This document shows positions 19,683-23,675 of a stretch of DNA of 64,000 nucleotides, piece by piece. How positions within the stretch are numbered: position 1 is the stretch's first letter; every line of letters starts with the position of its first letter. The position numbers were made by a program, and so were the translations under genes. Under the pieces are notes generated by a model, which saw only the letters and a program-made list of their open reading frames with translations, had not been told where the DNA came from and made no database searches. Source of the stretch: Paludisphaera borealis (lineage in GTDB: Bacteria > Planctomycetota > Planctomycetia > Isosphaerales > Isosphaeraceae); contig NZ_CP019082.1 in the NCBI RefSeq assembly GCF_001956985.1, positions 2,790,001 to 2,854,000 of the forward strand, read 5' to 3'.

Positions 19683-20277
19683 GAAGATCCTCGTTGTGTC
19701 GGTCGTAACAAGGTCCGCTCACGTCCCCGAGTCGGTAGACGAGAAACGAAGCCGAGGCTGCGGGTCCCCGCACGACGACCCGGAGGTCAGGCGCGAACTC
19801 GCGGCGGGGTGACGGAACCGAGCGAGAAAGGCTGCGACCCCTCTAGCTCCCCCCTATGGCGCAAAAAGACCATTTCGGCAAAACGCCAGCGCTGACGTAC
19901 CCGTTACCGGGGCCGCCACCGACCTTCGGGCAGGGCCGAGACGTCGAGGCCGACAACCAGGCCAAGGCCAGTCGTCCGACGGTTCCGTCCCCTCTTCCTC
20001 CGCCTCCCGCTTTGCCGCCCACGGCTTGACTAGTACGAAGTATCGGACACGCTTCTTTGATAACTTAAGAGGGACCTGGAAAACTAGGGCGTATTGGGAA
20101 TATACGAAACATAGGAATTCGGAAAAGCTTTCTGGTCACCTAAACTGCGGACTACGTTGCGATTGCGGTGGACGAGAGGATAGCGCGGATGCCCCTGATC
20201 GTCGCGATTGACGGAAATATGCGGGCGGGCGCATGTGGCTGAGGGCCGGGCTGCCTGTACCGACGGATGGAGAGCTT
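19683..20277. other. intergenic region with an AT-rich patch upstream of the methyltransferase gene
   Basis: About 600 bp lie between divergent genes. From about 20028 to 20160 base composition drops sharply compared with both sides (TTGACT, GATAACTTAAG, GGAATATACG, GGAATTCGG). I cannot pair the TTGACT with a -10 at 17 bp. A 61-codon frame here (20026-20211, plus) is too weak to call. It may be a foreign remnant or a promoter/operator zone. Confidence 0.5.
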
Positions 20278-21522
20278 GTGACGATTACGCCGACCAGAGA
20301 AATCGAAGACGACCGCCCCGTTCCCCCCTGCTCGGTCCACCACGACGACTGCCTGTCGTTCTTGAGGGGCATGGCGGCGGGGAGCGTCGCGCTGGTCTAT
20401 CTGGACCCTCCCTTCTTCACGAGGCGCGTCCATCGCTTGCACACCCGCGACCGGACGATGTCGTACTCCTTCGACGACGTCTGGGAGTCGCAGGAGGAAT
20501 ACGCCGCGTTCCTCCGTGAACGTCTGGAGGAAGCCCACCGGGTGCTGGCGGAGAACGGCTCGTTGTTCTTCCATTGCGACCGCAACGCCGGCCACGTCGC
20601 GCGGGGGTTGCTCGACGTGGTGTTCGGGGCGGCGAACTTCCGGTCGGAGATCATCTGGCATTACCGGCGGTGGTCGAGCGGTTCGTCGTCGTTGCTCCCG
20701 GCGCACCAGACGATCTACTACTACACCAGGTCGGGCTCGTTCGTCTTCCATCCGGTGTGGGGCGAGTACTCGCCGGCGACGAACGTCGACCAGTTGCTCC
20801 AGCGCCGGGAACGCGACGCCTTTCAGAAAGCCGTCTACCAGCGCGACCGGTCGGGCCGGCCGATCCCCAGCGGCGACAAACCGGGGGTGCCGCTGAGCGA
20901 CGTATGGGACATCCCTTATTTGAATCCCAAGGCCCGCGAGCGGACCGGCTATCCGACGCAGAAGCCGGTGGTCTTGCTGGAGCGGATCATCGGCCTGGCT
21001 ACCAACCCGGGCGACCTGGTGCTCGACCCGTTCTGCGGCAGCGGCACGGCGCTTGTGGCCGCCTTGCTTCTGGGACGTCGGGCGATCGGCGTCGACCGGT
21101 CTCCGGCGGCCGTCGAGCTGACCCGCAAGCGGCTGGCCGATCCGATCCGGAGCCGGTCGCGCGTCCTCGAACGCGGGCGCGAGTCGTACCGGACGGCCGA
21201 CGCGGAGAGCCTCGCGTTGCTGACAGGCCTCGACTGCGTGCCCGTCCACCGGAACGCGGGGGTCGACGCGATCCTCAAGCAGGAGTTCGACGACTCGCCG
21301 GTGCCGATCCGGGTTCAGCGGGCCGGGGAGACGGTCGCGGAGGCGGCGGCGAAGCTCCACCGCGCCGGAGGGCCGAAAGGGGCGAAGCGGATGTTCCTGG
21401 TCGTGCAAGAGCCCGACGCGACGGCCGCTGAGACCCGGCCGCTTCCGGCCGGCGTTTTCGTGATCGACGCGCCGGCGGTCGCGATCCGGCGGCTCTTGAG
21501 GGATGATCCCGACGACTCGTGA
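20278..21522 (+). CDS. solitary DNA methyltransferase (N4/N6-type) with extra C-terminal domain
   Basis: The 414-residue enzyme should methylate an exocyclic amino group of A or C using S-adenosylmethionine. The catalytic motif VYLDPPFF comes first (residues 41-48), and the AdoMet-binding DPFCGSGT last (250-257), preceded by YPTQKPVVLLERII: the beta-class motif order. A further 115 residues after the methyltransferase core (about 300-414) include GVDAIL and VPIRVQR, which resemble a degenerate PD-(D/E)xK nuclease-like pattern, though this is uncertain. No restriction gene lies nearby. I chose GTG at 20278 with GGAGAG just upstream; an in-frame ATG at 20233 is possible. Confidence 0.88.
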   Translation: MTITPTREIEDDRPVPPCSVHHDDCLSFLRGMAAGSVALVYLDPPFFTRRVHRLHTRDRTMSYSFDDVWESQEEYAAFLRERLEEAHRVLAENGSLFFHCDRNAGHVARGLLDVVFGAANFRSEIIWHYRRWSSGSSSLLPAHQTIYYYTRSGSFVFHPVWGEYSPATNVDQLLQRRERDAFQKAVYQRDRSGRPIPSGDKPGVPLSDVWDIPYLNPKARERTGYPTQKPVVLLERIIGLATNPGDLVLDPFCGSGTALVAALLLGRRAIGVDRSPAAVELTRKRLADPIRSRSRVLERGRESYRTADAESLALLTGLDCVPVHRNAGVDAILKQEFDDSPVPIRVQRAGETVAEAAAKLHRAGGPKGAKRMFLVVQEPDATAAETRPLPAGVFVIDAPAVAIRRLLRDDPDDS

Positions 21523-21545
21523 AGCCGGGATTCGAAACGCAAAAC

Positions 21546-21578
21546 GCCGCCGTCCCGACGTTGGGTCGGGACGGCGGC
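21546..21578 (-). terminator. intrinsic terminator of rpsA
   Basis: Perfect 14-bp stem GCCGCCGTCCCGAC (21546-21559) with GTCGGGACGGCGGC (21565-21578) and a 5-nt loop. Read on the minus strand it is followed by GTTTTGCGTTTCG, so it serves rpsA, which ends 35 bp upstream. The plus strand lacks a T-tract, but the hairpin could also slow transcription from the methyltransferase side. Confidence 0.8.
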
Positions 21579-21612
21579 GGAAGGTCGACGAGAGCTAAGT
21601 CGTTTGCTCAGC

Positions 21613-23463
21613 TCACTCTTCTTCGGAGGTTTTGGCTTCGGACTCGACCTCGACCTCGGCTTCGGAGGTGTCGGTGTCGGTTTCGACCTCGGCCTCGACC
21701 GCGGGCGTGCTGATGCTGAACAAGGGGCCGCCGCCGCCGAGTCCGCCCTTGAGTTCCTTGGTTTCCTTGAGAGCAGCCGCTTCGGCCGACTCGCCGCCAC
21801 CGGTGGACTCGCCTTCTTCGTCTTCGGGGCGGGTCCAGTGGGCCTTCTTGCGGGAGAGGCCGATCTTCCGCTCGCCGCGGTCGACCCGGAGGATCTTGAC
21901 TTCGATCTCGTCGCCGACCTTGACCACCTCTTCAGGGCTGTCGACCTTGTGGTCGGCCAGCTCGGAGATGTGCAAGAGGCCTTCGAGGCCCGGCTCCAGC
22001 TCGACGAAGACGCCGAAGTTGGTGAGCTTCGTGACCTTGCCCTTGACGACGTCGTTGGGCTCGTAGCGGCCGGGGATGTCGGTCTCCCACGGGTCTTCCT
22101 TGAGCTGCTTGAGACCCAGGGCGATCCGCTTGCGATCCTGGTCGACGTTGAGGACCTGGCAGGAGATCCGCTGGCCCTTTTCGAGGACTTCGTTGGGATG
22201 ACCGATCTTGCGGGTCCAGCTCATGTCGGAGATGTGCAAGAGGCCGTCGATGCCCTCTTCGATCTCGATGAACGCGCCGTAGTTGGTGAGGTTGCGGACG
22301 GTCCCCTCGACCATGGTGCCCGGCGGGTACTTGTTGGCGACCTGGTCCCAGGGGTTGACCTGGGTCTGCTTCATGCCGAGCGAGATCTCTTGCTTGTCCT
22401 TGTTGATGCCAAGGACGACGACCTCGATCTTGTCGCCGGTGTTGACCAGCTCGCTGGGGTGGTTGATCCGCTTGGTCCAGCTCATCTCGGAGATGTGGAC
22501 CAGGCCCTCGATCCCCTCTTCGAGCTTGACGAAGGCACCGTAGCTCATGACGTTGACCACTTCGCCGACGACGCGGGTGCCGACCGGGTACTTGTCGGCG
22601 ACGTTCTCCCACGGGCTGGCGCTCTTCTGCTTGAGGCCCAGCGCGATCTTCTCGCGGTCCTTGTCGACGTGCAGGACCATGACCTCGATCTGGTCGTCGA
22701 TCTTGAGCATGTCGCTGGGATGGTTGATCCGTCCCCAGCTCATGTCGGTGATGTGCAAGAGGCCGTCGATGCCGCCGAGGTCGACGAACGCGCCGAAGTC
22801 GGCGATGTTCTTGACCGTCCCCTTGCGGACCTGGCCGACTGCGATCTCCTCGAGGAGCTGCTTCTTCTGCTGCTCGCGGGTGATCTCGATGAGCTTGCGA
22901 CGGCTGACGACGATGTTGCGTCGGCTTTCGTCGATCTTCAGGATCATGCACTCGATCTCTTGATCGATGAAATCGGCGATGTCGGACGGCCGGCGGATAT
23001 CGACCTGGCTGGCGGGCAGGAAGACGTTCACGCCGATGTCGACGAGCAGGCCGCCCTTGATCTTCCGGGTCACCTTGCCCTTGACCACGTCGCCCTCGTG
23101 GTACTTGGAGATGACCATCTCCCAGGCCCGCATGCGATGGGCCTTCTTGCGGGAGAGCACGATCTCGCCGGTCTCGTCTTCCATCCCTTCGAGGAGGACT
23201 TCGACCTCGTCGCCGGTCACCGGCGCGGGTTCGTCTTCCCACTCGTTGAGCGGCACCAGGCCTTCGGACTTGTATCCCACATCGACGACGACCTGGTCGC
23301 CCACGATCTCGATGACCCGGCCCGGGACGATGGTCCCGATCTCGAAGCTCTGGCCTTCGCCCAGGAAGTGTTCGAGGGTCTTGGCGCCGTCCTCGGCAGT
23401 GACGACCGCCGCCAGCTCGTCTTCGTTGACGTCAAATTCACGTAGGAGGTTACGATCTACCAT
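21613..23463 (-). CDS. rpsA: 30S ribosomal protein S1
   Basis: The 616-residue protein binds mRNA on the small subunit and helps initiation on structured or weak Shine-Dalgarno messages. Six S1/OB repeats are visible in a row, e.g. GRVIEIVGDQVVVDVGYKSE, GLLVDIGVNVFLPASQVD, IADFGAFVDLGGIDGLLHIT, MSYGAFVKLEEGIEGLVHIS, LTNYGAFIEIEEGIDGLLHI and LTNFGVFVELEPGLEGLLHI, then an acidic Ser/Glu/Thr tail. The ATG at 23463 (MVDRNLL) fits the family; the upstream open frame is leader. It lacks a strong ribosome site, as is common for rpsA. Upstream lies a consensus promoter and a terminator-like hairpin. Confidence 0.95.
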   Translation of the reverse strand: MVDRNLLREFDVNEDELAAVVTAEDGAKTLEHFLGEGQSFEIGTIVPGRVIEIVGDQVVVDVGYKSEGLVPLNEWEDEPAPVTGDEVEVLLEGMEDETGEIVLSRKKAHRMRAWEMVISKYHEGDVVKGKVTRKIKGGLLVDIGVNVFLPASQVDIRRPSDIADFIDQEIECMILKIDESRRNIVVSRRKLIEITREQQKKQLLEEIAVGQVRKGTVKNIADFGAFVDLGGIDGLLHITDMSWGRINHPSDMLKIDDQIEVMVLHVDKDREKIALGLKQKSASPWENVADKYPVGTRVVGEVVNVMSYGAFVKLEEGIEGLVHISEMSWTKRINHPSELVNTGDKIEVVVLGINKDKQEISLGMKQTQVNPWDQVANKYPPGTMVEGTVRNLTNYGAFIEIEEGIDGLLHISDMSWTRKIGHPNEVLEKGQRISCQVLNVDQDRKRIALGLKQLKEDPWETDIPGRYEPNDVVKGKVTKLTNFGVFVELEPGLEGLLHISELADHKVDSPEEVVKVGDEIEVKILRVDRGERKIGLSRKKAHWTRPEDEEGESTGGGESAEAAALKETKELKGGLGGGGPLFSISTPAVEAEVETDTDTSEAEVEVESEAKTSEEE

Positions 23464-23593
23464 GTTTCCGATTCGTTGTGATTCCGTCCCGCACCCACCA
23501 GGGCCGGACGGACTCGTCAACCACGACTTCCCGAACGGCCCGCCCCGATGGCCCTGCCGCCTGGAGCGTCCCGCCGCGCGATTGACGAAAGCC

Positions 23594-23631
23594 AGAAAAA
23601 CAGAAAAACCACCCCTCCACACAAGGGGTGG
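23594..23631 (-). terminator. terminator-like hairpin inside the rpsA leader (possible attenuator)
   Basis: On the minus strand, CCACCCCT (23631-23624) pairs with AGGGGTGG (23616-23609) around a 7-nt loop and is followed directly by TTTTTCTGTTTTTCT (23608-23594). It is a textbook intrinsic terminator, but it lies between the predicted rpsA promoter and the rpsA start codon. Confidence 0.65.
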
Positions 23632-23647
23632 ATATTCGCAATCTAAT

Positions 23648-23675
23648 ATTATAGACGTCCCCCCAACCATGACAA
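23648..23675 (-). promoter_or_regulatory. strong sigma-70 promoter for rpsA
   Basis: Minus-strand -35 TTGTCA (23675-23670), 16-bp spacer, perfect -10 TATAAT (23653-23648). The predicted transcript starts near 23641, giving a leader of about 178 nt before the rpsA ATG. Confidence 0.75.

Follow-up and report, generated by a model that had tools for sequence, protein, structure and literature searches.

A conserved hairpin at the predicted 5' end of the rpsA transcript in Isosphaeraceae, a candidate leader read by ribosomal protein S1

The rpsA locus and its predicted leader

The window, i.e. the whole stretch of 64,000 nucleotides of Paludisphaera borealis DNA that was analysed, carries on its minus strand the gene of 30S ribosomal protein S1 with its own promoter and a predicted leader. 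The features of the locus are as follows.

23670..23675, minus strand: -35 hexamer TTGTCA of the rpsA promoter (promoter scan)
23648..23653, minus strand: -10 hexamer TATAAT of the rpsA promoter (promoter scan)
23464..23641, minus strand: predicted rpsA leader, 178 nt (start placed 7 nt after the -10 hexamer)
23609..23631, minus strand: P1, hairpin at the 5' end with a 9-bp stem and the loop GUGUG (fold and family conservation)
23594..23608, minus strand: terminator-like U-rich tract TTTTTCTGTTTTTCT abutting P1 (sequence and terminator score)
23483..23512, minus strand: P2, second predicted hairpin with the arms TCCGTCC / GGACGGA (moderate support only)
21613..23463, minus strand: rpsA, 30S ribosomal protein S1, 616 aa (open reading frame, six S1-domain stretches, NCBIfam model)
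21545..21579, minus strand: strong intrinsic terminator 3' of rpsA (scan and terminator score)

The gene behind the leader had been named rpsA in a first-pass annotation of the sequence. This name was confirmed by a domain search, which found six S1-domain stretches in the product, and by a score above the cut-off of the NCBIfam model for rpsA / 30S ribosomal protein S1. Translation starts at the ATG at 23463, and the same start is used by the relatives. A DNA methylase gene (Pfam N6_N4_Mtase; 20233-21522, plus strand) converges on the end of rpsA, and the terminator at 21579-21545 is located between the ends of the two genes. Because of this strong terminator, rpsA is probably transcribed alone, as a single-gene transcript.

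The near-consensus promoter TTGTCA-16-TATAAT of the first-pass annotation was recovered on the minus strand at 23675-23648, with 11/12 matches to the consensus. Its statement that there is no second promoter between hairpin and gene also held in a minus-strand scan at a threshold of at least 9/12 matches. The start of transcription is predicted at about 23641 from the position of the -10 hexamer. In the rpsA leaders of other Isosphaeraceae, whose -10 sites were assigned by hand, TTG was present at the correct -35 spacing in 29/38 cases. CTATCC or CTATTCC was seen near the -35 position, instead of TTGTC, in L044-L047, L049 and L052, which perhaps have a different type of promoter for rpsA.

P1 has the sequence CCACCCCTT-GTGTG-GAGGGGTGG (23631-23609, minus strand) and begins about 10 nt after the predicted start, as had been described. 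Its stem was found to consist of nine pairs rather than the eight first counted; six of the nine are G-C, and one is a closing U.G. The claim of a U-rich tract following the stem was borne out by TTTTTCTGTTTTTCT directly behind P1. For the first 37 nt of the leader a fold of -17 kcal/mol was predicted (z -3.17), and an equally stable fold was obtained in 1/200 shuffles of these nucleotides. P1 lies between promoter and rpsA and hence, with the start placed as above, within the 5' UTR of an mRNA for a ribosomal protein, as is typical of ribosomal leaders (r-leaders).

The second hairpin, P2, ends 19 nt before the rpsA ATG in the window. A predicted hairpin ending 12-32 nt before the ATG was present in 37/38 family leaders, with a mean stem score of 16.4 compared to 13.9 (sd 0.7) in shuffles, which gives it moderate support.

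An origin of P1 by chance, or as the ordinary terminator of an upstream gene, would be in line with the number of generic terminator-like matches in the region, which is near the chance level (13 compared to 11.1 expected). Against it stand the family conservation described below and the rarity of the arrangement. In 464 kb of the same genome (the window plus 20 sampled 20-kb stretches), 55 promoter-like sites were counted on both strands; a close downstream hairpin was present at 4/55, and a U-tract in addition at one, which is the rpsA site. The combination of promoter, close hairpin and U-tract is not near chance in this genome. Among the listed open reading frames, no minus-strand gene ends just upstream of the hairpin. 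Both forms of this explanation are hardly credible.

Conservation, covariation and specificity of the hairpin

S1 was found in 45/45 genomes of the family at an E-value of 0.001, some of the matches being partial or paralogous. Forty upstream regions (loci L021-L060) were collected from Isosphaeraceae and reduced to 38 leaders by removing L051, a near copy of L050, and L055, in which neither promoter nor hairpin was recognised. A matching hairpin was present in 33/38 of these rpsA leaders, 12-19 nt after the hand-assigned -10 site and 6-13 nt from the predicted start, with a stem of approximately 7-14 bp. Conservation of the hairpin had been set beforehand as one point on which the proposal of attenuation could fail, and it holds. 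The five leaders without a matching hairpin are L052, L054, L056, L057 and L059. L056 and L057 precede a second S1 gene in two Singulisphaera genomes (G038 and G037), which is 73-74% identical to that of the window; the S1 protein of L054 (G043) groups with these second copies.

The consensus of the loop in the family is GCGYG, of which the window carries the variant GTGTG. Counts in the loop columns of 30 model-aligned leaders were G 28, C 28, G 30, T 24 / C 6 and G 24, and nowhere in the hairpin is conservation higher than in this asymmetric centre. The stem arms vary among the leaders (CCACCCC, GTCGACTTCG, ATTCGCTCTCC, CTATCTGCAAGA and others). In an unsupervised count over 38 leaders, here with L055 and without L060, GCGT was the top loop tetramer with 22/38 leaders compared to 2.0 in shuffles (maximum 5). 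With the motif rather than the pairing as anchor, GYGY was located 20-40 nt after the -10 site in 32/38 leaders, and in 27/38 it was combined with a flanking stem score of at least 14. The same combined test in seven later 20-nt windows yielded 0, 0, 6, 3, 0, 0 and 1 leaders; counted as single motifs elsewhere in the leaders, 10/77 GYGY had a good stem.

Two further observations concern individual leaders. The word TTGCGT, an echo of the loop, was seen between predicted start and hairpin in L025, L034, L036, L037, L038, L040 and L041, and also in L044-L046, L049 and L095. In group g20 (L044, L045, L046 and L049) the predicted minimum-energy fold favours a longer-range pairing over the hairpin. 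The 5' arm and the loop are then paired with a downstream segment, which may be an alternative structure.

Covariation was assessed in a sequence-only alignment (A1) and a model-fitted alignment (A3). A1 contains 31/38 leaders, without the near copies L050 and L060 and without the five leaders in which no matching hairpin was seen; A3 comprises the model's 30 matches, from the 30 source sequences supplied to it. The covariation score was 0.384 in A1 (0.230 in shuffles) and 0.390 in A3 (0.231 in shuffles), and none of 500 shuffles reached it in either case. Paired cells amounted to 75.2% in A1 and 77.4% in A3, leaving about one quarter of the cells unpaired. For both alignments, neither the score nor the percentage of pairing was equalled in any of the 500 shuffles or in any slid version. 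The covariation support looked for in an r-leader thus comes from score and pairing, not from double changes: pairs with double changes were not above shuffles (7 compared to 5.8 in A1, 146/500; 6 compared to 5.4 in A3, 248/500), and one slid version of the alignment reached eight such pairs. Pair counts are conditional, since A1 omits leaders in which no matching hairpin was seen and the choice of the -10 sites was manual.

In the hairpin stems 35 G.U cells were counted and 11 A.C cells, an excess that fits an RNA of the rpsA strand. These data also bear on a reading as a DNA operator, in which a dimeric repressor would bind the palindrome immediately behind the start. Such an operator would look much like P1, an almost perfect inverted repeat within the first transcribed nucleotides, but the arms change while pairing is kept, G.U outnumbers A.C, and it is the asymmetric centre that is conserved best. 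Covariation and G.U bias disfavour the operator, which was considered highly improbable. Judged by comparison of the leader sequences, the hairpin is a conserved RNA with a varying, covarying stem.

The covariance model R1 found one strong place in the genome of P. borealis, with 44.8 bits, and a next best place with 25 bits. The latter (L091) has a GC-rich stem followed by TTTTTT and looks like an ordinary intrinsic terminator. A generic element was rejected, as the model has no second strong copy in this genome. Among 198 genomes of Planctomycetia, 22 gave a match at an E-value of 0.01 or lower, one match each. Comparison of the places with the results of the S1 search assigned 21/22 matches to positions before rpsA; among genomes with a match, the element thus stands consistently upstream of a ribosomal protein gene, as known from r-leaders. 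The lone other match (L112 in G196) precedes an unrelated open reading frame; chance probably accounts for it. The best-scoring genome, G013, was outside the training set of the model; its match lies before rpsA, shortly inside of which the contig ends. In this search, which was run with stricter filters, at least 20 genomes of the family had no match at an E-value of 0.01. Several of these do have the hairpin, so a miss of the model does not indicate absence of the hairpin.

From other families of Planctomycetia 100 regions were fetched, of which L152, L213 and L214 were unusable. Six of seven further loci of the class were added (L062, a near copy of L061, was left out), and the resulting 103 regions provided 90 leaders. 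GTGT was the top loop tetramer (9/90 leaders; 1.2 in shuffles), and GCGT was present in 9/90 as well (2.2 in shuffles, maximum 7). A hairpin with a G[CT]GT loop was present in 18/90 leaders compared to 3.65 in shuffles, and 0/200 shuffles reached this number. By a weak criterion, 12/18 of these hairpins lie 10-34 nt behind a TAnnnT word; the remaining 6/18 differ from the hairpin identified behind such a word. A related element is claimed for a minority only, because just 18/90 leaders are concerned and six of these lack the link to TAnnnT. By eye, a hairpin can be seen 20-30 nt behind a -10-like site in many leaders of other families. Together, the loop counts suggest a class-wide element in Planctomycetia. 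In L130, L191, L195, L203, L205 and L209, all from other families, TACAAT is followed by an apparent two-part hairpin, with the outer arms TTCCCG / CGGGAA in L191. Outside the class, inspection of 22 loci by eye gave no convincing copy. L084 may have one, and L072 gave a weak match to the model (17.7 bits, E 0.15).

The U-tract and the terminator character of the hairpin

Terminator strength was calculated with a classical terminator score. P1 with its U-tract scored +38 in the window, compared to +40 for the terminator after rpsA. Like an intrinsic terminator, it combines a GC-rich stem with a U-tract immediately behind it, and in 6/6 genomes of the genus of the window the score was positive with the U-tract at the stem. 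In the family as a whole, 11/33 leaders scored positive (the 33 include the near copies L050 and L060; L095 was unscored), so that terminator potential is not conserved family-wide as in an attenuator. In these 11 leaders the T-run starts at the stem or one base later. At least five T within 8 nt after the stem were counted in 17/33 leaders; at background positions of these leaders the frequency was 0.7%.

A tree of the S1 proteins was used to map the U-tract. With 33 rows the label needs four changes, compared to a mean of 11.4 when shuffled. The U-tract is absent from a supported clade (100/97) of seven rows, which is sister to the genus of the window and nested among lineages with a U-tract; its loss within this clade would be the simpler reading of the tree. 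The hairpin is kept in 6/7 rows of the clade, with the loops GCGTG (three rows), ACGTG (one) and TCGTG (two). Retention without the U-tract indicates that the hairpin is kept for something other, or more, than termination.

The original proposal of transcription attenuation by a leader terminator thus stands in part. The hairpin is conserved, and all six genomes of the genus combine it with a U-tract and a positive score. As the general function of the element attenuation did not stand, given the 11/33 positive scores and the nested clade that has kept the hairpin in 6/7 rows without the tract. On the comparative evidence, what the leaders share is a stem-loop that carries the GCGYG loop, and termination is at most one of its outputs. 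Riboswitch-like switching was rejected: in the window only approximately 10 nt precede the stem, which leaves no room for a competing antiterminator upstream.

A constitutive terminator or pause close to the promoter, which sets the output of rpsA without sensing S1, would agree with a score close to that of the terminator after rpsA and with an upstream stretch too short for an antiterminator. The conservation of the loop and the persistence of the hairpin in lineages without a U-tract point instead to recognition, and this explanation is quite unlikely.

Somewhat less unlikely, though still improbable, is a stabilising 5' cap: the U/C-rich tract would be the landing site of S1 or the 30S subunit in the lack of a Shine-Dalgarno sequence, and the resemblance to a terminator would be incidental. 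Such a role would account for the close distance of the hairpin to the predicted start (6-13 nt) and for its retention in lineages without a U-tract. The 25 nt behind the hairpin are 72% pyrimidine, compared to 48% elsewhere in the leaders, which is partly the U-tract itself. Shine-Dalgarno-like words (GGAG, GAGG, AGGA; at least four letters) at positions -20 to -4 were found in 1/38 family leaders, a scarcity that would fit an S1-dependent start and is also counted in favour of the S1 leader proposed below. On the other hand, the GCGYG loop would not have to be conserved in a simple cap, and landing would not call for a T-run as close to the stem (at most one base away) as in the 11 terminator-positive leaders.

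Proposed function and comparison with known systems

A conserved loop on a variable stem at a constant position indicates recognition, most simply by a protein. P1 is proposed to be a cis-acting RNA and a candidate protein-read ribosomal leader of S1, and a probability of about one half is assigned to this reading. Where a leader has one regulated gene, the reader is assigned in the main text of PMC7247131 to the product of that gene. Since rpsA is probably alone on its transcript, the same principle makes S1 the leading candidate reader.

In the proposed mechanism, a protein would read the loop and the adjacent pyrimidine-rich tract on the nascent or finished rpsA mRNA. S1 would be the leading candidate for this protein, and its binding to the U-rich tract is possible. 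Excess of the reader protein would lower the expression of rpsA. Where the U-tract abuts the stem, as in Paludisphaera and some other genera, the output may, less certainly, be premature termination about 35-45 nt after the start. For attenuation as the output of the S1 leader in Paludisphaera the odds appear slightly below even. Where the U-tract is absent, the output would be at another level: translation, decay of the mRNA or pausing of the polymerase. A wider version covers the whole class: S1 or a factor borne by RNA polymerase would read the hairpin with its GYGU loop when it emerges from the polymerase, 30-45 nt downstream of the start, and would decide there on transcription of rpsA without an antiterminator RNA, with the output shifted where the U-tract is absent. 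This extension is unlikely.

The conserved 5' hairpin may be a switch that sets the amount of S1. The compact hairpin with its fixed loop provides a defined RNA for binding tests with S1, and the presence or absence of the U-tract around the nested clade is a natural experiment on the output. The rpsA leader is also a candidate for attenuation without antiterminator.

A search against Rfam at the gathering threshold gave no match in the window or in 12 chosen relatives. At E-values up to 5 one unrelated match appeared, far below its gathering score, and was rejected. The main texts of PMC7247131, PMC2965389 and PMC11109978 do not contain the terms 'rpsA' or 'Planctomycet-'. Among the literature matches listed, which exclude most subscription papers and supplements, none describes an S1 leader in Planctomycetes, and P1 may be undescribed so far as an S1 leader. 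The 20 r-leaders in Table 1 of PMC7247131 include none for S1 and none from Planctomycetes; 35 earlier leaders lie outside this comparison.

The L10(L12)4 leader of rplJL is longer than the rpsA leader element and forms alternative structures, for which there is no room before the terminator in the rpsA leader. The rplJL system of B. subtilis is comparable to the proposed one in that autoregulation by a ribosomal protein works there through attenuation of transcription in the leader (PMC4538822).

According to PMC10931766, S1 has no strict sequence preferences, yet is a specific autogenous repressor of its own mRNA in gamma-proteobacteria. The gene is the same as here, and the gamma-proteobacterial leader is likewise structured, has single-stranded stretches that S1 could bind and lacks a canonical Shine-Dalgarno sequence, which matches the 1/38 leaders with such words in Isosphaeraceae. 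Control in gamma-proteobacteria is translational and acts at the initiation region (PMC10931766), whereas the present element is located at the predicted 5' end, approximately 145 nt ahead of the start codon, and may serve as a terminator.

The rimP-leader is presented in the main text of PMC2965389 as a conserved terminator without antiterminator, for which a protein reader is favoured by the authors. The rpsA element resembles it as a short conserved hairpin with a U-tract before a translation-related gene, with no antiterminator visible (in the rimP-leader, in most species) and a protein reader suspected. The rimP-leader conserves its stem (GGGc...gCCC) before rimP (PMC2965389); in the rpsA hairpin the stem is different and variable and the loop is conserved, the gene is rpsA, and some of the Isosphaeraceae have no U-tract. 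Like the r-leaders, the element is a covarying RNA that is conserved in the leader region of a gene for a ribosomal protein; the known outputs of r-leaders include conditional terminators (PMC7247131).
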